Shown: positions 5,407 through 14,320 of the stretch, piece by piece
Position numbering within the stretch: position 1 is the first letter of the stretch
Layout of the letters: every line of letters begins with the position of its first letter
Source of the DNA: Streptomyces sp. JHA26
GTDB lineage: Bacteria > Actinomycetota > Actinomycetes > Streptomycetales > Streptomycetaceae
DNA length: 64,000 nt
Direction: 5' to 3'
NCBI RefSeq assembly: GCF_002005565.1
Contig: NZ_BDJC01000005.1
Coordinates: 62,001 to 126,000, forward strand
Notes under the pieces: model-generated
Database searches by the model: none
What the model was told of the DNA's origin: nothing
Seen by the model: the letters and a program-made list of their open reading frames with translations, nothing else
Made by a program: the position numbers and the translations under genes

Positions 5407-6051
5407 TCAGGCCCCCTTGGCCGCGGTGCGGACCAGGACGAGGCCGCCGTTCGGACCGGGAACCGCGCCCTTGATGAGCAGCAGACCCTTCTCCGCGTCA
5501 ACGGCGTGGACGGTCAGGTTCTGGGTGGTGACCCGCTCGTTGCCCATACGGCCGGCCATGCGGAGGCCCTTGAACACGCGACCCGGGGTGGCGCAGCCAC
5601 CGATGGAGCCGGGCGAGCGGTGCTTGCGCTGGGTGCCGTGACCGGCGCCGAGGCCCTTGAAGTTGTGACGCTTCATGACACCGGCGAAGCCCTTGCCCTT
5701 GCTCTTGCCGGTCACGTCGACCTTGACACCGGACTCGAACACCTCAGCGGTGATCTCCTGGCCCAGGGTGTACTCGGCGGCGTCCGCGGTGCGGATCTCG
5801 ACAAGGTGGCGGCGGGGGGTGACGTCGGCCTTGGCGAAGTGGCCCTTGAGGGGCTTGTTCACCTTGCGCGGGTCGATCTCGCCGAAGGCGATCTGGACGG
5901 ACTCGTAGCCGTCGACGTCGTTCGTGCGGACCTGGGTGACGACGTTGGGGCCGGCCTTGACGACGGTGACCGGAACAACGCGGTTGTTCTCGTCCCACAC
6001 CTGCGTCATGCCGAGCTTCTCGCCCAGGATGCCCTTGATCTGCTTGGTCAT
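5407..6051 (-). CDS. rplC: 50S ribosomal protein L3 (uL3)
   Basis: Large-subunit protein near the peptidyl transferase centre. The 214-residue product starts [19 protein letters not shown] and contains [21 protein letters not shown] and [23 protein letters not shown] 6051 is chosen because upstream in-frame sequence (to 6093) is only rpsJ tail read in another frame. It starts 16 nt downstream of the rpsJ stop. Confidence 0.98.
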
Positions 6052-6067
6052 CTTCAGATCACCGGCC

Positions 6068-6376
6068 TCAGAGCTTGATCTCGATGTCGACACCGGCCGG
6101 GAGGTCGAGTCGCATCAGAGAGTCAACGGTCTTGGGGGTCGGGTCGAGGATGTCGATCAGGCGCTTGTGCGTGCGCATCTCGAAGTGCTCGCGCGAGTCC
6201 TTGTACTTGTGCGGCGACTTGATGACGCAGTACACGTTCTTCTCAGTGGGCAGCGGCACCGGGCCCGCGACCGACGCACCAGTACGCGTCACCGTCTCGA
6301 CGATCTTCTTCGCCGAGGAGTCGATGACCTCGTGGTCGTAGGCCTTGAGCCGGATGCGGATCTTCTGTCCCGCCAT
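6068..6376 (-). CDS. rpsJ: 30S ribosomal protein S10 (uS10) / NusE
   Basis: Small-subunit head protein and, as NusE, part of antitermination complexes with NusB and NusG. The 102-residue product starts [19 protein letters not shown] and ends [12 protein letters not shown] 6376 is the conserved start. An open frame runs far upstream to 6808, but that part covers the non-coding leader. It is the first gene of the S10 operon and is preceded by a long leader with a promoter-like pair at 6702-6732. Confidence 0.98.
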
Positions 6377-6759
6377 GGCTACTTCGTAGTCCTGTCTCTC
6401 GAAAACGCTCTGGAACCCGGTGTTCGAACCCCTTCGGCCGACCCACGCGGTCGGGCGTGTCGCACTCCCGCTGACACAGATGTCCTTCTCCAGGACTTCC
6501 CTGCTGGGGGAGCGCGGCCCTTCCGGAACCGCAGGCCGGGGGCGAAAGGCCCACCGAGTGCCTGGCCTGCACCCCGCTGACACTTCCCGGAAGATTCCCA
6601 TACTTCCGCCCCTGATCAGGGGCGACGAGTACTGTGGGACTCGCTTCCGGTCCTCCCGGCGGGAGGCGCGCAGCATCGGCACTCGACCGAGCAACCCCGC
6701 TAGTCTGCCATACGGGACGGGGGCCTGGCCAATCGAGCCGGAGAGAATACCCCGCACGT
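6377..6759 (-). promoter_or_regulatory. S10 operon promoter and leader upstream of rpsJ
   Basis: About 380 nt without a gene. A promoter-like pair reads on the minus strand as TTGGCC (6732-6727), 19 nt, then CAGACT (6707-6702). That would give a transcript leader of over 300 nt. The leader holds the 14-bp palindrome CCCCTGATCAGGGG (6609-6622) and the GGTCGG hairpin at 6438-6454. Most of the segment (6440-6759) recurs, diverged, at 11354-11668. The promoter call is by eye only. Confidence 0.6.
6438..6454 (-). promoter_or_regulatory. Leader hairpin shared by rpsJ and rpsL
   Basis: Plus-strand CCGACC, loop CACGC, GGTCGG forms a perfect small stem-loop 62 nt upstream of the rpsJ start. The same hairpin, followed on the plus strand by GGYGTGTCG, is found 51 nt upstream of rpsL (36442-36458). 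A version with 4-bp arms is at 11354-11366. Conservation upstream of two ribosomal-protein operons suggests a shared regulatory or stability element. Its ligand is unknown. Confidence 0.55.
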
Positions 6760-6834
6760 GACGCGGATCAAACCGCGGCCCGCCGGGCGAGGGCGCGGGG
6801 CGGGACATGCCGGGACATTCGGGAGGGGACGAGC

Positions 6835-7227
6835 ATGACCGAGGCCTGAACGACCGGAACGCCGGAAGCCGAACAGCTCGGCGAGGCGTCGCTCCGGGCG
6901 GCCGATCGCGTGGACAAGTGGTCGATCACCTGGATCCTGCTGTCCCTGGCCCTGTGGGGCTGCTTCGCGATCCTGATGCTCAGCTCCTACGGCGGCGACA
7001 GCGAGCCGCGCTGCGAGGGTCCGCTGCTCGACCCGTTCCAGCGCACCGACGGCGCCTGCGCCAGCGAACTCCGCCAGTGGCCGGCCCTGCTCGGCATCCT
7101 CGCCCTGTCGACCATCGCGACGATCGTGGCAGCGGCGACGACGGTCTACGCGAAGTTGCTGACGCGCCTGGCGAGGACGTCCGGCCGCCCGGGGCCGGAC
7201 GCCGGAACGGGACCGGGCACCGCCTGA
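6835..7227 (+). pseudogene. Small two-TM membrane protein gene with in-frame TGA at codon 5
   Basis: A strong ribosome site (GGGAGGGGAC) precedes ATG 6835, but the fifth codon is TGA (6847-6849). The same frame then stays open to 7227. The remaining readable part starts at GTG 6910 (105 residues, [17 protein letters not shown]) and has two hydrophobic segments, about residues 7-26 and 58-82, separated by a Cys-containing loop (SEPRCEGPLLDPF...DGACASEL). The sequence between the stop and 6910 ([20 protein letters not shown]) looks coding. Either a nonsense mutation has damaged the gene or translation restarts at 6910, which has no clear Shine-Dalgarno. Function unknown. Confidence 0.55.
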
Positions 7228-7317
7228 TCAGACGCGCCCGTCACACAGTGAGGTGCGGGCGGCTCGCGGCCATCCGTGTCAGTGGCTCGGTCTCCTGTTC
7301 TTCGGCGGCGAAGACGG

Positions 7318-7578
7318 AGGCGCCGTATCACCCTGGAGAACATCCCGGAGGAGGCGTACGAGTACCAGCTCGGGTCGCGCTCCGCCATCGAATGGATCAT
7401 CGACCGGTACCAGGTGAGGACCGATCCCAAGTCCGGCATCGTCAACGATCCCAACGACTGGTCCGACGATCCGCGCTACATCGTCGACCTGCTCAGGCGC
7501 ATCATGACGGTCAGTCTCGCCACCATCGAGATCGTCAGGCACCTCCCGCCGCTCGACATCATCGAAGACGCCGGCTGA
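7318..7578 (+). pseudogene. C-terminal remnant of a type ISP restriction-modification/helicase enzyme
   Basis: The translation reads RITLENIPEEAYEYQLGSRS, then AIEWIIDRYQVRTDPKSGIV, NDPNDW and DDPRYIVDLLRRIMTVSL. This matches the extreme C-terminus of large (about 1,600-residue) single-polypeptide type ISP restriction enzymes/DEAD-box helicases, where the IPxEAxxYxLGxRSAxEWxIDxYQ and NDPNDW motifs are conserved. Nothing of the helicase, nuclease or methyltransferase domains is present upstream, so this is a fragment. An Arg-rich run precedes the homologous part and is probably junction sequence. It marks a lost defence gene in this interval. Confidence 0.7.
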
Positions 7579-7596
7579 TCCGCCGCCGACGCGGAA

Positions 7597-7630
7597 CACC
7601 CCACGTGAGGCTCCGGCTTCTCGTGGGGTG
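7597..7630. terminator. Bidirectional hairpin between convergent units
   Basis: Inverted repeat CACCCCACG ... CGTGGGGTG with a 16-nt centre. It lies between the plus-strand ISP remnant (ends 7578) and the minus-strand DUF397 gene (ends 7645), the right place for a shared terminator. No U-run follows. Confidence 0.6.
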
Positions 7631-7644
7631 CGGGCGTCGAGAGG

Positions 7645-7833
7645 TCAGCTCTGCGACGCGTAGGTCACGAAGTCCGCCCACGCCTCGGGTGTGAGCGCGA
7701 GTCGGGGGCCGGACGTGTTCTTGGAGTCGCGGACGTGGACTGTGGCGGGGGTGGGGGCGACTTCAACGCAGTCGTTGCCGTTACTGCTGCTGCTGTAGCT
7801 GCTCTTGAACCAGTGGAGTTCCGGCGTGCTCAT
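7645..7833 (-). CDS. DUF397 domain protein (WhiJ-locus small partner)
   Basis: The 62-residue product [20 protein letters not shown] continues [18 protein letters not shown] and ends [16 protein letters not shown]. The pattern W-KSSYS-----CVEVA, VRDSK, F/W--F is the DUF397 signature. In Streptomyces, DUF397 proteins are paired with XRE regulators of the WhiJ type and are thought to modulate them. The ATG overlaps the stop of the upstream regulator gene (ATGA), so the two are translated together. The biochemical role is not known. Confidence 0.9.
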
Positions 7834-8675
7834 AGCTCTCCCAGCATTTGCTCGATGAAGACCAGAGACTCCTCTGGTGTGAGCGCCTGAGCCCGGATGA
7901 TGCCATAGCGCAGATCGAGAACGCGGAGCTGCCTGGGGTGCGAGACCGGGCGGCCTCCGAAGTCACCTTCGGTACGCCCCATCCCCGTACCGTCCGCGAA
8001 CTTGAGCACCTCGACAAGCCCACCCGTTCCCGGGTGGTTCGCGTGGGCGGTAGGCATCACCTGAAGCTCCACGAACGGCAACTTCGCCACGTCCAGCATG
8101 TGTTCGAGCTGTCGGCGCAGCACCATTGTGCCTCCGACCGGGCGGCGCAGCGTCACCTCTTCCAGGACGAAGCTGAACTCTGGCGCGGGTGAGCGCTCGA
8201 AGACGGACTTCCGGGCCATACGAGCGACCGTCATACGCTCCAGTTCGTCCGGCGAGTAGGCGGGACGCCAGGTACGAAGCAGCGCCCGCGCGTACTCCTC
8301 CGTCTGCAACAACCCGTGGATGTTGTGATTGCTGTACAGCAGCATCTCCACCGACCGTTCCTCCAGCTCGGCCAACTGCCGCACCTTCTTCGGATACCGT
8401 GCCTTGCGCATGTCCTCCATGAAGGCCCTCAGATGCCCCTGCGCCTTCAGGATCTGGTCCGCTCTGTCCAGGTACTCCGGGCGGGGAATGCGGGCCCCTC
8501 GCTCGATTTTGCGGATCATGTCCTCGCCGTATCCGAGGGCGGCCGCCAGCTCGGGCACGCTCATCCCGGCGGCCTCCCGGCATACCTTGAGCAGGCGGCC
8601 CACCGCCTGCACCACCGGCTCGATCTCGTCACCCGGCTCGACATCCCAGCCCGCCTCGTCGACACCCTCGTCCAC
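7830..8675 (-). CDS. XRE-family regulator with DUF5753 domain (WhiJ-like)
   Basis: The product has 281 residues. The N-terminal helix-turn-helix includes [20 protein letters not shown] and [18 protein letters not shown]. The rest fits the DUF5753 effector domain, including [12 protein letters not shown] and [28 protein letters not shown] 8675 is chosen because GGAGGAG lies 5 nt upstream; the frame is open to 8744 without a ribosome site. It forms one operon with the DUF397 gene and is divergent from the ATP-binding protein gene at 8818. WhiJ-type loci (regulator, DUF397, anti-sigma-like ATPase) act in development and antibiotic control; this one's target is unknown. Confidence 0.9.
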
Positions 8676-8738
8676 GGCTGCTCCTCCTTCGGCGCGTACT
8701 CGTACTCCGTACAACGCCTGGGACAGCCGAGACAGCCG

Positions 8739-8822
8739 AGACAAAAGCCGGGACAGTGACGGTACGTGCAGGCGTTGTCACTCATCCACGGAATCAGGTT
8801 CGGCCACGCTGAGTGACGTGAA
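8739..8822. promoter_or_regulatory. Divergent control region of WhiJ-like locus 1
   Basis: Two blocks here recur in locus 2. GGACAGTGACGGTACGT (around 8750-8766) corresponds to GGACAGTCACCGTACGT upstream of 20209. CCACGCTGAGTGACGTGAA (8804-8822) is identical at 20195-20213 and includes the GTG start of the ATP-binding gene. Conserved spacing in two loci points to a shared promoter or operator, possibly bound by the XRE regulators. The binding site itself was not identified. Confidence 0.5.
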
Positions 8823-9276
8823 TCAAGACATGCGTGCCCCTGAAAACCACCTCGCCCGCCCCGTTCGTAACCTCAGCCTCCAGCTGTCCTCCACGCCGCG
8901 CGGCGCCCGTCTCGCTCGGCTGCTCGCCACCGAGCAACTGCGCACGTGGGGGCTGCCGTCGCATCCGGCAGAGCTCATCGTCGGGGAGCTGGCGGCCAAC
9001 GCCGTCACCCACGGCCGCGTCCCCGGCCGGGACTTCCAGCTGCTGCTGTACGTCGTCGGTGACACTCTCCGCATCGAGGTCACCGACACGCGCGGTGACC
9101 GGTTGCCGTGCCCGCAGCACTCCACCGACGACGCCGAGTCCGGCCGCGGCCTGCTGCTCGTGGAGGCCCTCGCCGACCGTTGGGGCGTCGCCCCCGGCCC
9201 GCCCCCACTCAAGACCGTCTGGGCCGAGGTGGGGACCGGGTCCGCCGGACAGTGCCCCGCCCCACCCCGGCGGTAG
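8818..9276 (+). CDS. ATP-binding protein of the HATPase_c / anti-sigma regulatory type
   Basis: The product has 152 residues. It has a GHKL fold with N-box LIVGELAANAVTHGRVPGRD, the G1-type motif IEVTDTRGDRLP, and the G2 motif ESGRGLLLVEALADRWG. There is no dimerisation or phospho-acceptor domain, as in the SpoIIAB/RsbW-like proteins abundant in Streptomyces. GTG 8818 is chosen because the start and the preceding 14 nt are identical to those of the paralogue at 20209; ATG 8830 is an alternative. It is divergent from the XRE regulator, completing a WhiJ-like locus. A direct sigma-factor partner is not visible nearby. Confidence 0.88.
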   Translation: MNQDMRAPENHLARPVRNLSLQLSSTPRGARLARLLATEQLRTWGLPSHPAELIVGELAANAVTHGRVPGRDFQLLLYVVGDTLRIEVTDTRGDRLPCPQHSTDDAESGRGLLLVEALADRWGVAPGPPPLKTVWAEVGTGSAGQCPAPPRR

Positions 9277-9289
9277 CGGACGGCGCGGC

Positions 9290-9796
9290 TCAGGGCAGCT
9301 CGGCCCACGTCCCCATCGTGGTCTCCAGCGTCCAGATGCGGACCTCGGCCCGCGCCCGGGCCGCATACAGGTCCCGCTCGGAGACGATGCTCAGGTCGCC
9401 GGTGCCCAGCTGCTGTCGTACGGCGTGCGTGGCCAGGTCCATGCCGGTGGTACCGCCGTCACAGAGCGAGGTGAGGAAGGCACCGTCCCAGGTCCGCTCG
9501 TGCAGCACCCAGGGCGCCTCCCCGCGCGCGGTCCTGCGCAGCATGCTCATGAAATCCGCAGCACACTTCCGGCGGGCATCACCGTTCTTGATCTGGAAGA
9601 CGTGGTTGCCGGTCTCGATCACGGTCGCGGTCGGCAGCACGAAGCGCACCTTGGATTTCAGCCGGACGTCCATCTCCGACAGGACTTCGTCGCGGTGGGC
9701 GTTCATATGAGGTACGCCGAGGATTTCGACGAAGACGGAGGTGTCCAGGAAGTCGACGACGGGGAGACGCAGCCCGGACTGTTGCTGTCTGCTCAC
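9290..9796 (-). CDS. PIN-like domain protein, predicted ribonuclease
   Basis: The 168-residue product shows a PIN-type acidic set: D18 in FLDTSVFVEIL, E61 in TATVIETGNH, D120 in GMDLATHAV and D142 in SERDLY. These are the positions expected to bind the metal ions of a PIN nuclease. Start is GTG 9796, with GAGGAG overlapping the end of the upstream ATPase gene. The gap is 4 nt, so the two proteins are probably made together. A VapC-type antitoxin gene is absent; the partner is the AAA ATPase. The fold assignment rests on motif spacing and is fairly but not fully secure. Confidence 0.65.
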   Translation of the reverse strand: MSRQQQSGLRLPVVDFLDTSVFVEILGVPHMNAHRDEVLSEMDVRLKSKVRFVLPTATVIETGNHVFQIKNGDARRKCAADFMSMLRRTARGEAPWVLHERTWDGAFLTSLCDGGTTGMDLATHAVRQQLGTGDLSIVSERDLYAARARAEVRIWTLETTMGTWAELP

Positions 9797-9800
9797 GGGC

Positions 9801-11141
9801 TCACAGGCTCCTCAGGAAGTCCTCGACGCTTGTCACGCCCTCTTCCCGGGGGCGCACGGCATCCGGCAGGCGCCCCTTGGTCACCGCGTCGCCGAGGTCT
9901 CCCGCGGCCAGGAGATCGACATAGCCGGGCAGTTCCGTGAGGCGGGTCAGCCGGCTCTCCCCCGACTCCGGGTCCCGGCTGCACACGACGACTCCCGGAT
10001 GGTCCTGTGCGTTCAGAGAGTTGAGCAGGGCCGGGCTGTGGGTGGTGAAGAGCACATCGATGCGTCGCCGCTGGGACTCCTCCTTCATCAGGCGCAGTAC
10101 CCGTGCGGCCTGGGTGGGGTAGAGGCCGTTCTCGATCTCCTCGATCACCAGGTGCCGCTGCGTCAGGAGCGGCTCGTCGCCACCGCCGGAGACGGGCGCA
10201 CTCAGCAAGGCGGTGCCGAAGGCCAGGAATCGCAGCATGCCGTCACTCAGGAGCCGTGCCGGGACGTCGTGCTCCGCTCCGTGATATCCCGCCTCGCGCA
10301 GTACCAGTTGCACATCCCCCAACTTGGTGCCGACACTGCTCACCCCCCGCACCGGGTATTCGGGCATTCCCGCCACCAGCTCCGTAAGCCTGTCGAAAGC
10401 GGCGGGATCGGTCTTGGCCAGGCCCGCGACCGCTGCGCTCAGATTGTCGGCGCTGCGTCTGAGCTCCACGTCGCGCGCGTTGACGTACTGCCTCATGAGA
10501 TGCGGAACCGGATCAAGGAGGAAGACGTCCCGCAGAACGGCGAGCACGTCCTGCGCCGCTCGGTGCACGAGCTTCGTGGCCTCCGTGGTCGCGGGCAGCC
10601 TCACCGGCACCTGCCCGGCCAGCAGCCGGTCGGCGGCGAACGGTACTCCCGGGTCGAGACCACGCCGCCCGTTGAAGTAGCGGACGTTGAGGTCACTGCG
10701 GCGTGCGTCCGGTGCGTCGCTCGCCAGGAGGGAGCGTCCCGCCGCCAGTCGACGGCCTGCGTAGGGCACGCCCTCGACCGCCGTCAGTTCCTCACGGAGG
10801 ATGCGCACCTCAGGCGAGACCGCGATCACCACGTCCAGGTCGAAAACCGCCTCTCCGGACCGCACGCGGCACCCGAGCCCGAAACGGTCCTCCCCCAGCG
10901 GCGCGCACCCCTCGGCGCCACCTCGGATCGGTTCCTCCCCCCCGCTGCGCGGCCCGTCCAGTGCGTCCCGCACCGGCTCTCCCAGTGCCAGCCGGGACAG
11001 CACCATCAGCCCGTCCAGCGCGTTGGACTTTCCGCTGCCGTTGCGCCCGATCAGCACGGTGAGGTCCTGCAAGGGCAGGCGCTGCTCGGTGAAGCTCTTG
11101 AAGGAGGTCAGCCGCACCTCCTCAAGGCGGGGAGTCTCCAC
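9801..11141 (-). CDS. AAA15/AAA_21-type (OLD/RecF-like) ATPase
   Basis: The product has 446 residues with an ABC/SMC-like ATPase core. Walker A is GRNGSGKSN (residues 32-40), preceded by the typical LTSFKSFTEQRLPL. The signature-like stretch is RLLSDGMLRFLAFGTALL, Walker B is HLVIEEIENGLYP, and the switch His is in FTTHSPALLNSL. There is no TOPRIM domain, which sets it apart from OLD proteins. It is followed at once by the PIN-like gene, so ATPase plus nuclease could form a two-gene defence-type module. Start is GTG 11141. A diverged copy of the rpsJ promoter-leader lies 213 nt upstream in the same orientation. Confidence 0.88.
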   Translation of the reverse strand: METPRLEEVRLTSFKSFTEQRLPLQDLTVLIGRNGSGKSNALDGLMVLSRLALGEPVRDALDGPRSGGEEPIRGGAEGCAPLGEDRFGLGCRVRSGEAVFDLDVVIAVSPEVRILREELTAVEGVPYAGRRLAAGRSLLASDAPDARRSDLNVRYFNGRRGLDPGVPFAADRLLAGQVPVRLPATTEATKLVHRAAQDVLAVLRDVFLLDPVPHLMRQYVNARDVELRRSADNLSAAVAGLAKTDPAAFDRLTELVAGMPEYPVRGVSSVGTKLGDVQLVLREAGYHGAEHDVPARLLSDGMLRFLAFGTALLSAPVSGGGDEPLLTQRHLVIEEIENGLYPTQAARVLRLMKEESQRRRIDVLFTTHSPALLNSLNAQDHPGVVVCSRDPESGESRLTRLTELPGYVDLLAAGDLGDAVTKGRLPDAVRPREEGVTSVEDFLRSL

Positions 11142-11353
11142 CGGACACCTCTCTCGTTCGCTGTCGACCTGGCACAGTCCTGACCCCAGCTAAGCAGCAG
11201 CCCTCGTACCCGTCCAACGGCGGCCTACCGGTGTGCCGCACAGTCAACCGGCCACCTGCAGCACGGCGAAGCGCGACAGTTGCTGGAGCTCTGCCGCTGT
11301 TCTGCGTCCAGTTGCGGGCGTGGGCGGTGTCCAGAGCGCCGCCCTTCACCTCT

Positions 11354-11668
11354 GACCCACGCGGTCGGGCATGTCGCGCTCCTGCTGACACAGATGTCCC
11401 TTTGGGGACTTCTCTGCCGGGGGCGTGCGGGCCCTTCCGGAACCGCGGGCGGGGCGAGAAGCCCACCGGGTGCCTGGTCTGCACCCCGGTGACGCTTTCC
11501 GGAAGGTTCCCGTACGTCCGCCCCTGATCAGGGACGACGAGTTGTGGGACTCGCTTCCGGCCCTCCCGGCGAAAGGCGCGCAGCATCGGCGCTCGACCGG
11601 GCGACTCGGCTGGTCTGGTGTACGGGGCGCGGGGCTGGCCAATCGAGGCGGCTGGCTGTACCCCACGT
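11354..11668 (-). repeat. Diverged second copy of the rpsJ promoter-leader
   Basis: Matches 6440-6759 in the same orientation over its whole length, roughly 80-85% identical by eye with small indels. Blocks kept exactly include CTGACACAGATGTCC, CCCTTCCGGAACCGC and CGCCCCTGATCAGG. The promoter-like pair is kept as TTGGCC (11642-11637) and CAGACC (11617-11612), again 19 nt apart. No ribosomal gene follows. The next gene downstream on the minus strand is the AAA ATPase at 11141. The 212 nt between the two (11142-11353) show no gene or recognised element. Confidence 0.85.
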
Positions 11669-11717
11669 CACCAAACCCTACACACGAGCACCCGAGCAAC
11701 CACCTCCGAGGAGAGGC

Positions 11718-12257
11718 TCACCGGCAGTGCAGGGTCTTGACGGTGGCGGGGAAGTAGGCGCGCATGAACTTCTCGATGTCCTTGCGGTGGCTTTCATCCA
11801 TGATGTTCACCTCAGGCATGCGCATTTCGATAATCAAGTCGGTGTTACGACCGACAACGCACGACCCCGATACGATCGCACCATTATTGCCGACGATTGC
11901 CTCGTCCGCGATGTTCACCGACTTCCACTGCGAAATATCCCGGAAGACGGGATCATACTTGGATCGCCCAGCAAATTCAGGGCTCGCAGTGGAGTAATAG
12001 AAGTGAAGCTCCAGAATCCGCTTCCCGCTGGAAAAGAGAGTGCAGGGGGCTGAGATCCCCTCAGATGGGTCCAGCCTGTTGGACTCGGTCAGGTCGCCCG
12101 TGGAGGTGAGAACCGAGCGGAACAGCTCCCGGTCGATCCGGGTACCGCACAGCAGCTCCGGGATCTGGTCGCCATCCGACCGGTCGCAGCCGGTCGTGAC
12201 GAGGACTATCGCCAGCGCGAAAAAAACTGTCACCCCATGCCACTTGAGGGACTTCAC
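11718..12257 (-). CDS. Putative lipoprotein, DUF6571-operon partner
   Basis: The 179-residue product has a signal peptide (basic MKSLKWHG, then a hydrophobic core) ending in a lipobox LVTTGC, with Cys24 as lipidation site. The mature part contains ELLCGTRIDRELFRSVL and ends in a Cys-containing segment (TVKTLHCR). The GTG start overlaps the stop of the upstream DUF6571 gene (GTGA), so expression is coupled. Base composition is clearly less GC-rich than the neighbours. No enzymatic motif is visible; a surface role with the DUF6571 protein is inferred from the coupling. Confidence 0.75.
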   Translation of the reverse strand: MKSLKWHGVTVFFALAIVLVTTGCDRSDGDQIPELLCGTRIDRELFRSVLTSTGDLTESNRLDPSEGISAPCTLFSSGKRILELHFYYSTASPEFAGRSKYDPVFRDISQWKSVNIADEAIVGNNGAIVSGSCVVGRNTDLIIEMRMPEVNIMDESHRKDIEKFMRAYFPATVKTLHCR

Positions 12258-14320
12258 GTCGCCTGCTTTCCCGATACTCCTTGCGCATGCTTAATTCCGT
12301 CCTCGGCGGACTCGTTGATCTGTTTCTGAACATCGTACGGTTCTCGGGGAGGTGACTCGCGAGTTCCTCGCCATTCCTCGGCGAGTGCCATCAACTGTCC
12401 GTTCCGACTGGAATAGTGCGCAATATTATCGGCGGTCTGCTGACCGTCGAGCCTCCGCTGTTCGTCCTCCAGCCACTTTCCCGTAACATAGTCAAATCCT
12501 TGCTGCACCTTGTCACTGACCACAGGGATGTAACTGATCGCTTCGTCGATGAGTGGCTTGGCCTCGAATTCCGCGACCTTGGGATCGCCTTGCGCCTGGA
12601 CGCGCGCCTCTTCGAGGAAGCCGATCGTCCGCCCGGCCCTGTTCAGTGACTCAGTCGACCCCTTGGCTCCGTCGTCATGGATGTCGGCCACCATGGCCTG
12701 ATTCAGTCCGCCGTTCAGCGTGCTGTATGCGTCCGAGTCCTTGGAGACCTGCTTGGTGACCTCGAGGAGGTCGGTCTGATCAATCGGTGAATCGGCCATG
12801 CTGATATTGCTCATCGATCGATGCACCGTGTCCCCGTGGTTGACCATGATGTTCGCCATCGGCTGCCGCAGGGACGGCGGGAAGTCGTCGCCGCTGTCGG
12901 CCAGGGACGTGAGGGCCGACGTGAACACCGCGTCGTTCTGCTTCGTGTGTTCGACGTACCGCGCGTTCTCGTCCGACGGGTCGATGCCGGTCGCCGCGGC
13001 CTGGAGCGCGGCGCCGAAACCGGCACGGTTGTCGCCGTCCACCCCAGGCGTGTACGTGCTGGCCTTGGCGCCCTCGTGCTCGTGCAGGGTGACGTCCCAG
13101 TCCCTGTCCTTCATCAGGTACGTCATCTTCTCGTCGGAACCGAGATACGCCGCCGCCGCGTCGGGGTGGTGGCTCATGAGGCCGAGCATGCCGTCCACCG
13201 GGTCGTTGGCGAACCAGCCGTCCCGCTTGCCGGCGTACTCGTGCTTCAGCTGCCAGATGCCCGGATCCTTCTTCTCCGCCGCGATCATGTCGTCGGTGAG
13301 GTCCCCGAGCATGTCCGGCGAGTATCCGTGTCCCTTCTGCATCAGCGTGACGAGCGACTGGTAGCCGACGGCCTTGTCCAGGCGGGCGCCCTGCGCGTCG
13401 GTGCCGTGCCGCTCCACGCCGGCCTCGCGCATGTCCTCGCGCCAGCCCTCGTACCACGACGACTTGGTGTCCTTCGTCGCGGAGGCCAGGGCGTTGGCCA
13501 GGCCGGTCTCGATCGTCGAGTAGTGGGCCGCGCGGTCGCCGCCCCGTACGTGGATGAGGTCGTTCAGCTCGTTCGTCAGCGTGAGGGTGCCGTCGGCGCC
13601 CAGGCCGTCGAGGAGAGTGCGGGAGAACGCCGGGTCGTCGCTGTTGTCGCGGAACGTCCGCTCGAGCTCGGCGATCTCCCTGTCGGACAGGCGACCGCCG
13701 CCGCGGAGCTTCTCCAGCGCCTCCTCGGCCGCTTCGCCCTCGTACTTCTCGATGTCGTTCTTCGCCTCGCCGTTGAAGCCCTTGCCCCCGGCGATGACGC
13801 TGGAGTCGGTCACGACGGCCTGCAGGGCGATCTGTACGCCCACGTCCGCGTCCGTGACGTCCCGGACCGCCTTGTCGATGCGGTCCTGCCACGACTGGAC
13901 GGCCTCCTGCCACCCCGGATCGTGACGCAGCGTTCTGCGTTCGGCGTCCGACAACCGCTCGATGTCCAGGCTCACATGGCCCTGCTCGGACACCTTCATG
14001 CCCGCGTCCACGGCGTCCTGCCGTGCCGACTTCAGCCGGCCGCGCAGGTCGACGAACTGCGCGTGCGCGTCGCGCAGGAGTCCGGCCACCGCTTTGGCCT
14101 CGGTCTGCGCGTACCCGAACTCCTTGAGGGTGACGTCGAAGCGCCGGTTGGCCGCGTCGGCGCTCAGTCCCACCCAGCCGGTGCCCATGGAGATGCCGTG
14201 CACATCCCGGCCGTAGGCCTTCTCCTGCTCGGCGAACTCGCCCGCCATGCCGTCCCACCGGTCGGCGGCGGTGATGAGCGCGTCGAGGTCGGTGGTCATG
14301 ATCTCGTGGTACGTCGGCAT
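12254..14320 (-). CDS. DUF6571-family protein with WXG100-like N-terminus
   Basis: The 688-residue product begins MPTYHEIMTTDLDALITAAD. Its N-terminal ~130 residues are helical and WXG100-like (MGTGWVGLSADAANRRFDV near residue 46), which suggests export by an ESX/type VII pathway. The centre contains family-type segments such as RTLLDGLGADGTLTLTNELN, and the C-terminal third contains LNRAGRTIGFLEEARVQAQG. The C-terminal ~170 codons are less GC-rich. It lies between a WXG-like small gene upstream and a coupled lipoprotein gene downstream. The function of the family is unknown; no toxin active site was recognised. Confidence 0.7.
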   Translation of the reverse strand: MPTYHEIMTTDLDALITAADRWDGMAGEFAEQEKAYGRDVHGISMGTGWVGLSADAANRRFDVTLKEFGYAQTEAKAVAGLLRDAHAQFVDLRGRLKSARQDAVDAGMKVSEQGHVSLDIERLSDAERRTLRHDPGWQEAVQSWQDRIDKAVRDVTDADVGVQIALQAVVTDSSVIAGGKGFNGEAKNDIEKYEGEAAEEALEKLRGGGRLSDREIAELERTFRDNSDDPAFSRTLLDGLGADGTLTLTNELNDLIHVRGGDRAAHYSTIETGLANALASATKDTKSSWYEGWREDMREAGVERHGTDAQGARLDKAVGYQSLVTLMQKGHGYSPDMLGDLTDDMIAAEKKDPGIWQLKHEYAGKRDGWFANDPVDGMLGLMSHHPDAAAAYLGSDEKMTYLMKDRDWDVTLHEHEGAKASTYTPGVDGDNRAGFGAALQAAATGIDPSDENARYVEHTKQNDAVFTSALTSLADSGDDFPPSLRQPMANIMVNHGDTVHRSMSNISMADSPIDQTDLLEVTKQVSKDSDAYSTLNGGLNQAMVADIHDDGAKGSTESLNRAGRTIGFLEEARVQAQGDPKVAEFEAKPLIDEAISYIPVVSDKVQQGFDYVTGKWLEDEQRRLDGQQTADNIAHYSSRNGQLMALAEEWRGTRESPPREPYDVQKQINESAEDGIKHAQGVSGKQAT

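Follow-up and report, generated by a model that had tools for sequence, protein, structure and literature searches.

A Streptomyces ATPase and PIN-like nuclease gene pair assigned by family models to the phage defence candidate PDC-M07

We analyzed a stretch of 64,000 nt from Streptomyces sp. JHA26 (NZ_BDJC01000005.1, positions 62001 to 126000), referred to here as the window, and found that two adjacent genes on its minus strand are, as assigned by PADLOC family models, a Streptomyces member of the catalogued phage defence candidate PDC-M07. The pair is real and conserved, it had been read rightly in outline by the initial annotation, and it is already catalogued as a candidate. An apparently unnamed pair thus receives a name, and its likely catalytic residues are corrected for mutagenesis. 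Support is also added for PDC-M07 as a defence system, namely, nesting within type I restriction-modification (RM) operons, carriage on plasmids, and a position upstream of rpsJ that recurs in Streptomyces. The two genes, in window coordinates, are as follows.

9801 to 11141, minus strand: PDC-M07A, ABC/OLD-type ATPase, 446 aa (PADLOC PDLC04389; Pfam AAA_21/AAA_15)
9290 to 9796, minus strand: PDC-M07B, predicted PIN-like nuclease, 168 aa (PADLOC PDLC04394)

When compared to PADLOC-DB v2, the ATPase matched PDC-M07A (PDLC04389) best, with an E value of 1.4e-181 over residues 2 to 444 (profile positions 2 to 441 of 443), and the PIN protein matched PDC-M07B (PDLC04394) best, with an E value of 1.4e-51 over residues 13 to 165 (profile positions 3 to 149 of 154). 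The next named families for the ATPase were HEC-01A (1.7e-32) and AriA (1.9e-30), with AbiLi further down (3.7e-17), while the matches of the PIN protein listed at E values up to 10 comprised seven families, six of them PDC-M07B models and the last RmrT at 0.012. PDC-M07A was matched by all 18 aligned ATPases and PDC-M07B in all seven plasmid records searched. It had been suggested that this ATPase/PIN pair is unnamed, which does not hold, since both proteins match PADLOC's PDC-M07A and PDC-M07B models. PMC12839542 places OLD-ABC ATPases paired with PIN endoRNases in BREX neighborhoods and, taking this together with the PADLOC matches, the pair is neither unnamed nor unprecedented. The string PDC-M07 did not occur in any of the papers searched, and we found no functional test of PDC-M07 in print.

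The open reading frames (ORFs) themselves stood as initially reported. Both lie on the minus strand, the stop of the ATPase ORF ending at 9801 and the PIN ORF beginning with GTG at 9796, which leaves a gap of 4 nt. Compared with six relatives, substitutions in the ATPase and PIN genes alike were commonest at codon position 3; against locus L003, for example, changes at codon positions 1, 2, and 3 numbered 5, 8, and 72 in the ATPase gene and 7, 5, and 14 in the PIN gene. As homologues are also present in Cyanobacteria, Gammaproteobacteria, and Lactococcus, we conclude from this codon bias and this distribution that both ORFs are genuine genes rather than chance ORFs. No promoter or terminator patterns were found between 9000 and 11750, and an Rfam scan of positions 6000 to 12500 (E up to 1) gave a single match, far under its gathering score.

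The ATPase matched the Pfam families AAA_21 (2e-30) and AAA_15 (9.3e-13), and neither Pfam nor NCBIfam placed a TOPRIM domain on its 446 residues, unlike in classical OLD nucleases, in which TOPRIM is fused. This supports the initial description of an ABC/OLD-type ATPase devoid of TOPRIM. Residues G32, G37, K38, S299-D300-G301, E335, and H368 were kept in 18 of 18 aligned sequences; we take them to be Walker A (G32, G37, and K38), a signature-like motif (S299-D300-G301), the catalytic glutamate of Walker B, and the H-loop (H368), respectively. Walker B is formed by E334-E335, and all listed motif residues were found in 17 or 18 of the 18 sequences. The choice of K38 as the Walker A lysine was thus right. 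An AlphaFold2 model built from 11 sequences was of low confidence (pLDDT 47.5, pTM 0.41). When PDB sequences were searched with the ATPase, PtuA chains came first, by matches that were weak and local (E value of 1.2e-4, query residues 290 to 377).

We then examined the acidic residues of the partner in an alignment of 22 homologues, of which the other 21 are 25 to 95% identical to the window protein. Four positions stood out: D18 (21/22), E61 (22/22), D134 (22/22), and position 158, which is acidic in 22/22 (E in 12 and D in 10). E140 was conserved in 21/22. The invariant core comprises ETGNH around E61, G133-D134 (within GDLSI), and W155, with E158 lying in WTLE. The initial annotation had proposed an acidic tetrad of D18, E61, D120, and D142; the first two residues are borne out, while D120 is an aspartate in only 11 and D142 in only 16 of the 22 homologues, the conserved positions being D134 and 158 instead. 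The conserved acids fit the order D, E, D, D/E, which we take to be that of the PIN superfamily active site.

The PIN-like nature of the partner is supported by these acids and by weak Pfam PIN matches among homologues, with a fold model that gave no decisive score. Pfam PIN (PF01850) was weakly matched by 10 of the 22 homologues at E values up to 1 (best, 0.0014), PIN_12 by 3 of the 22 (best, 0.0008), and PIN_4 by two; four non-PIN Pfam families also matched one or two of the 22 (best, 0.0081). The window protein itself had no Pfam match at E values up to 1 and no NCBIfam match, and a PDB sequence search with this protein and with the 22-row profile found no PIN protein. The AlphaFold2 model, obtained from 11 close sequences, was of middling confidence (pLDDT 63, pTM 0.62), since the input sequences were all close relatives. 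When this model was submitted to Foldseek, 14 of the best 20 rows were titled VapC/VapBC or PIN domain, the best row being 5x3t_B (VapBC) with an E value of 0.029, and none of the matches reached 0.001. In VIA-align, VapBC entries led (Z 8.2, rmsd 5.3, 105 aligned residues), with entries not titled PIN close behind (RohQ, 6.6 to 6.7; a CbCas9-PcrIIC1 chain, 6.3). Each of these lines is weak alone; taken together, the sequence and model lines make a PIN protein the clear reading of the predicted partner.

The tight association of the two genes was likewise upheld. A search of genome contigs gave 12 Streptomyces loci encoding the PIN protein, and ATPase sequence lay directly upstream in 11 of them, being truncated in L008 because the contig stops there; the sole exception, L014, is a PIN fragment. 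In the family survey, PIN matches were obtained in 14 of 297 genomes at 15 places, some of them remnants, and ATPase sequence adjoined the PIN sequence at 13 of these, the other two being short remnants (L027 and L028). All 11 places at which at least 150 PIN residues aligned had adjacent ATPase sequence, covering about 420 residues or more in nine. Decay is frequent (L014, L016 to L018, L026 to L028, and G044). L016, L017, and L018 are broken copies, in three genera, whose ATPases have lost the Walker A region wholly or partly. In L016, the PIN gene is full length and retains its acids, and the adjacent ATPase is matched only at residues 174 to 446. In L017, the ATPase is represented by residues 1 to 37 and 177 to 446 and the PIN frame departs after about residue 150, so that E158 is missing, while in L018 the PIN gene is broken. 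L026, in turn, combines a full-length ATPase with a PIN fragment.

In a sample of 396 genomes of the phylum, 3 were matched by the PIN profile, one of them by a fragment. Among 72,556 plasmid records, the PIN protein was matched in nine, and in all nine an annotated ATPase or ATP-binding protein was encoded immediately upstream, so that the only misses in the three sets (11/12, 13/15, and 9/9) are PIN fragments. Seven of the nine plasmid records are predicted to be conjugative or mobilizable. Three, one from Vibrio campbellii and two from Photobacterium damselae, show the order type I M - S - ATPase - PIN - R; the PIN proteins of these Vibrionaceae plasmids are 99 to 100% alike and represent one lineage. 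This nesting within a type I RM operon in 3/9 plasmids, together with the PDC-M02A/B and DrmMI-like genes near the pair in L006 described below, supports the link to defence suggested by the initial annotation. No match was found in 50,697 phage records with the window and Vibrio PIN proteins as queries, nor in E. coli genomes by blastn with the Vibrio pair, and viral contigs searched for PIN relatives contained none. In the PIN copy of an Anabaena cylindrica plasmid (L034, 4983 to 5456), a tyrosine replaces the first catalytic aspartate, and this protein may therefore be inactive.

The pair stands between tuf and rpsJ (gene names from sequence), in a region that we take to be flanked by rpsJ, rplC, and rplD at one end and by tuf, fusA, and rpoC at the opposite end. 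The features of this site that bear on the pair are listed here.

6071 to 6373, minus strand: ORF presumed from its sequence to be rpsJ (ribosomal protein S10)
6440 to 6741, minus strand: rpsJ upstream leader (S10 operon), copy 1, from sequence comparison
7276 to 7578, plus strand: type ISP restriction enzyme remnant (C-terminal specificity domain; PF18135, 1.8e-19, profile positions 285 to 342 of 342)
11354 to 11651, minus strand: rpsJ upstream leader, copy 2, preceding the start of the ATPase gene by about 210 nt

We searched with rpsJ the 12 genomes of the Streptomyces loci and the 7 family-survey genomes with the closer PIN matches, more distant PIN proteins (about 40% identity) being left out, and obtained one rpsJ match in each of these 19 genomes. 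In 14 of them, the PIN gene or its remnant precedes rpsJ by 0.46 to 18.4 kb on the same strand and contig. The exceptions are G304, G305, and G069, where PIN and rpsJ are on different contigs, and G073 and G269 (a remnant), where they are about 150 and 90 kb apart, respectively.

The initial annotation had described the interval as a site of turnover marked by a type ISP remnant and a leader duplication, and both signs proved to be real. The remnant matched PF18135, and no relatives of it were found in loci L003 to L036 at 1e-8. The two leader copies are 85% identical over 303 nt, are 4.9 kb apart from start to start, and flank a 4.6-kb block containing the pair. Copy 2 is 86 to 87% identical to leaders of three other species and 85% identical to copy 1, and a tree does not resolve a foreign origin. 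We also considered that a duplicated S10 leader might drive the pair in general and rejected this, because the nine other loci containing the rpsJ leader hold one full copy each, at rpsJ. Two or three leader matches in about 30 of the 150 genomes searched with the leader caution against reading too much into these single copies.

Relatives of the ATPase were found at a threshold of 1e-30 in 107 of the 297 family genomes, and we read the loci of 30 of the best 31 places. They divided according to the partner gene. In L043 to L055, a PIN match (1e-6) lay beside the ATPase in 12/13, some of these being fragments, and a MazG-like match in 0/13. In L056 to L072, whose ATPases are about 37 to 42% identical to that of the window, a MazG-like match started 29 to 87 nt after the ATPase ORF in 17/17 and a PIN match was found in 0/17. 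Since 16 of the 17 come from one genus (g14), in which this ATPase group is widespread, they do not represent 17 independent events. The one MazG-like partner scanned matched Pfam MazG-like (PF12643) at 2.2e-12 and had no PADLOC match at 1e-5, while the three ATPases scanned (L061, L062, and L071) still matched PDC-M07A best, at 5e-82 to 1e-85. The passage of PMC7824862 on MazG does not describe a pairing of an ATPase with a MazG-like protein. The PDC-M07A ATPase might be a modular sensor of infection with interchangeable effectors, a PIN RNase in PDC-M07 and a MazG-like nucleotide pyrophosphohydrolase in the related ATPase group, a proposal that we hold tentatively and regard as rather doubtful at present. 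If true, the ATPase and MazG-like pair would constitute a defence system that depletes nucleotides and that PADLOC-DB does not list under this description. Of the present findings, the MazG-like partner most deserves to be pursued, and it offers a case in which the exchange of effectors on a single sensor can be put to the test.

We next compared the pair with known systems. In family models and gene order we found no difference from PDC-M07 itself, both proteins being matched by its models almost from end to end and encoded by adjacent genes on the same strand. PARIS resembles the pair in combining an ABC/OLD ATPase devoid of a nuclease domain with a separate nuclease gene; moreover, PARIS senses anti-restriction proteins (PMC11455837), and relatives of the present pair are nested within type I RM operons. 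However, the effector is a TOPRIM protein in PARIS and PIN-like here, and AriB was not among the PADLOC matches of the PIN protein, nor did Pfam or NCBIfam give any match. The pair does not belong to PARIS because it has no TOPRIM partner, and since the match to AriA (1.9e-30, behind both PDC-M07A and HEC-01A) is far weaker than that to PDC-M07A (1.4e-181), PARIS serves as an analogy only. The dyads of OLD-ABC ATPases and PIN endoRNases near BREX, proposed in PMC12839542 as backup suicidal effectors, represent the same kind of pairing, but the neighborhoods there are those of BREX. AbiL (AbiLi and AbiLii) also joins an ATPase to a second protein, and the ATPase matches the AbiLi model (3.7e-17), whereas AbiLii is not among the seven PADLOC families matched by the PIN protein at E values up to 10. 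In contrast to VapBC, no small DNA-binding VapB antitoxin was found beside the PIN gene, its neighbors being the 446-aa ATPase and, on the other side, a HATPase_c_2 protein encoded on the opposite strand.

By analogy with PARIS (AriA and AriB; PMC11455837), we consider it somewhat probable that PDC-M07 is a defence pair in which a sensor ATPase controls a PIN RNase that halts translation on infection. The ATPase would assemble into an oligomer able to detect infection, with aberrant DNA or an anti-restriction protein as examples of the cue, and would restrain the PIN protein until triggered. The trigger would alter the ATPase, so that the PIN protein is freed or activated and may then cleave cellular RNA, most likely tRNA or rRNA; translation would stop and the infection would be aborted, as with AriA and AriB. 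This reading is favored by the matches to both families, the conserved residues of the ATPase and of the PIN protein, the pairing across phyla, the carriage on mobile plasmids, the nesting in RM operons, and the recurrent position at rpsJ. According to PMC13092281, the effectors of the defence systems DS-3 and DS-5 are PIN nucleases. Against this stands the report in PMC12409345 that two other PDC candidates, PDC-M63AB and PDC-S04, gave no defence when tested. L016, with its full-length PIN gene beside a truncated ATPase, fits mildly poorly with a lethal free PIN protein restrained by the ATPase.

The same locus is more easily accommodated by a defence pair that acts directly on the invading nucleic acid, the ATPase binding foreign DNA and switching on the PIN protein within a stable complex, as in Septu PtuAB, with no release of a toxin. 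The best PDB matches of the ATPase, to PtuA chains (1.2e-4, residues 290 to 377), point in this direction, and the release step is one that we only infer for PDC-M07. These matches are weak and local, however, DNA binding by the ATPase would be a supposition here, and PIN proteins are mostly RNases, so that we regard such direct action as unlikely. The pair could instead act outside defence as a housekeeping quality-control module for RNA or nucleotides, linked to the S10 operon, in which members of the ATPase family work with PIN or MazG-like enzymes. The MazG-like partner in 17/17 related-ATPase loci read, 16 of them from one genus, and the position upstream of rpsJ in 14/19 genomes would agree with this, yet the PIN version is rare (14/297 family genomes, some with remnants), is often decayed, and occurs elsewhere on plasmids or within RM operons, which makes a housekeeping function improbable. 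A toxin-antitoxin-like module that mainly stabilizes its locus or plasmid, with anti-phage effects being secondary, appears slightly more improbable still. While 7/9 plasmid records are predicted to be conjugative or mobilizable and the modeled PIN protein resembles VapC toxins, the partner is a 446-aa ATPase rather than a small DNA-binding antitoxin. Also against it are the PIN gene kept beside a truncated ATPase, in L016 only, and the presence of the pair or its remnant on the rpsJ contig, within 18.4 kb, in 14/19 genomes. A PARIS-like defence pair is thus the reading that we prefer.

Finally, we looked at the genes around the pair. In the window, these are mostly not defence genes, a point against the defence reading. 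Positions 7645 to 9276, beside the pair, hold a DUF397 gene, an HTH_31/DUF5753 regulator, and the HATPase_c_2 gene, and relatives of the regulator occur in 6 of the 11 loci L003 to L013 (L004 to L008 and L013). In S. iakyrus (L006; 2660 to 4554 and 11327 to 12466), the surroundings of the pair include PDC-M02A/B and a gene with a match to the C-terminal part of DrmMI. Defence matches near the pairs of relatives were otherwise few among the matches listed: for 71 of 120 predicted neighbor genes, the matches listed (25 of 58 families) included mad3 (3), mad8 (2), CARF_ADA (2), and WYL (1). In L010, a gene near the pair (8059 to 9426) matched PADLOC CARF5--CARF_ADA at 7.5e-38, and adenosine deaminase, like CARF_ADA, was matched in 2 of the 71 neighbor genes scanned.
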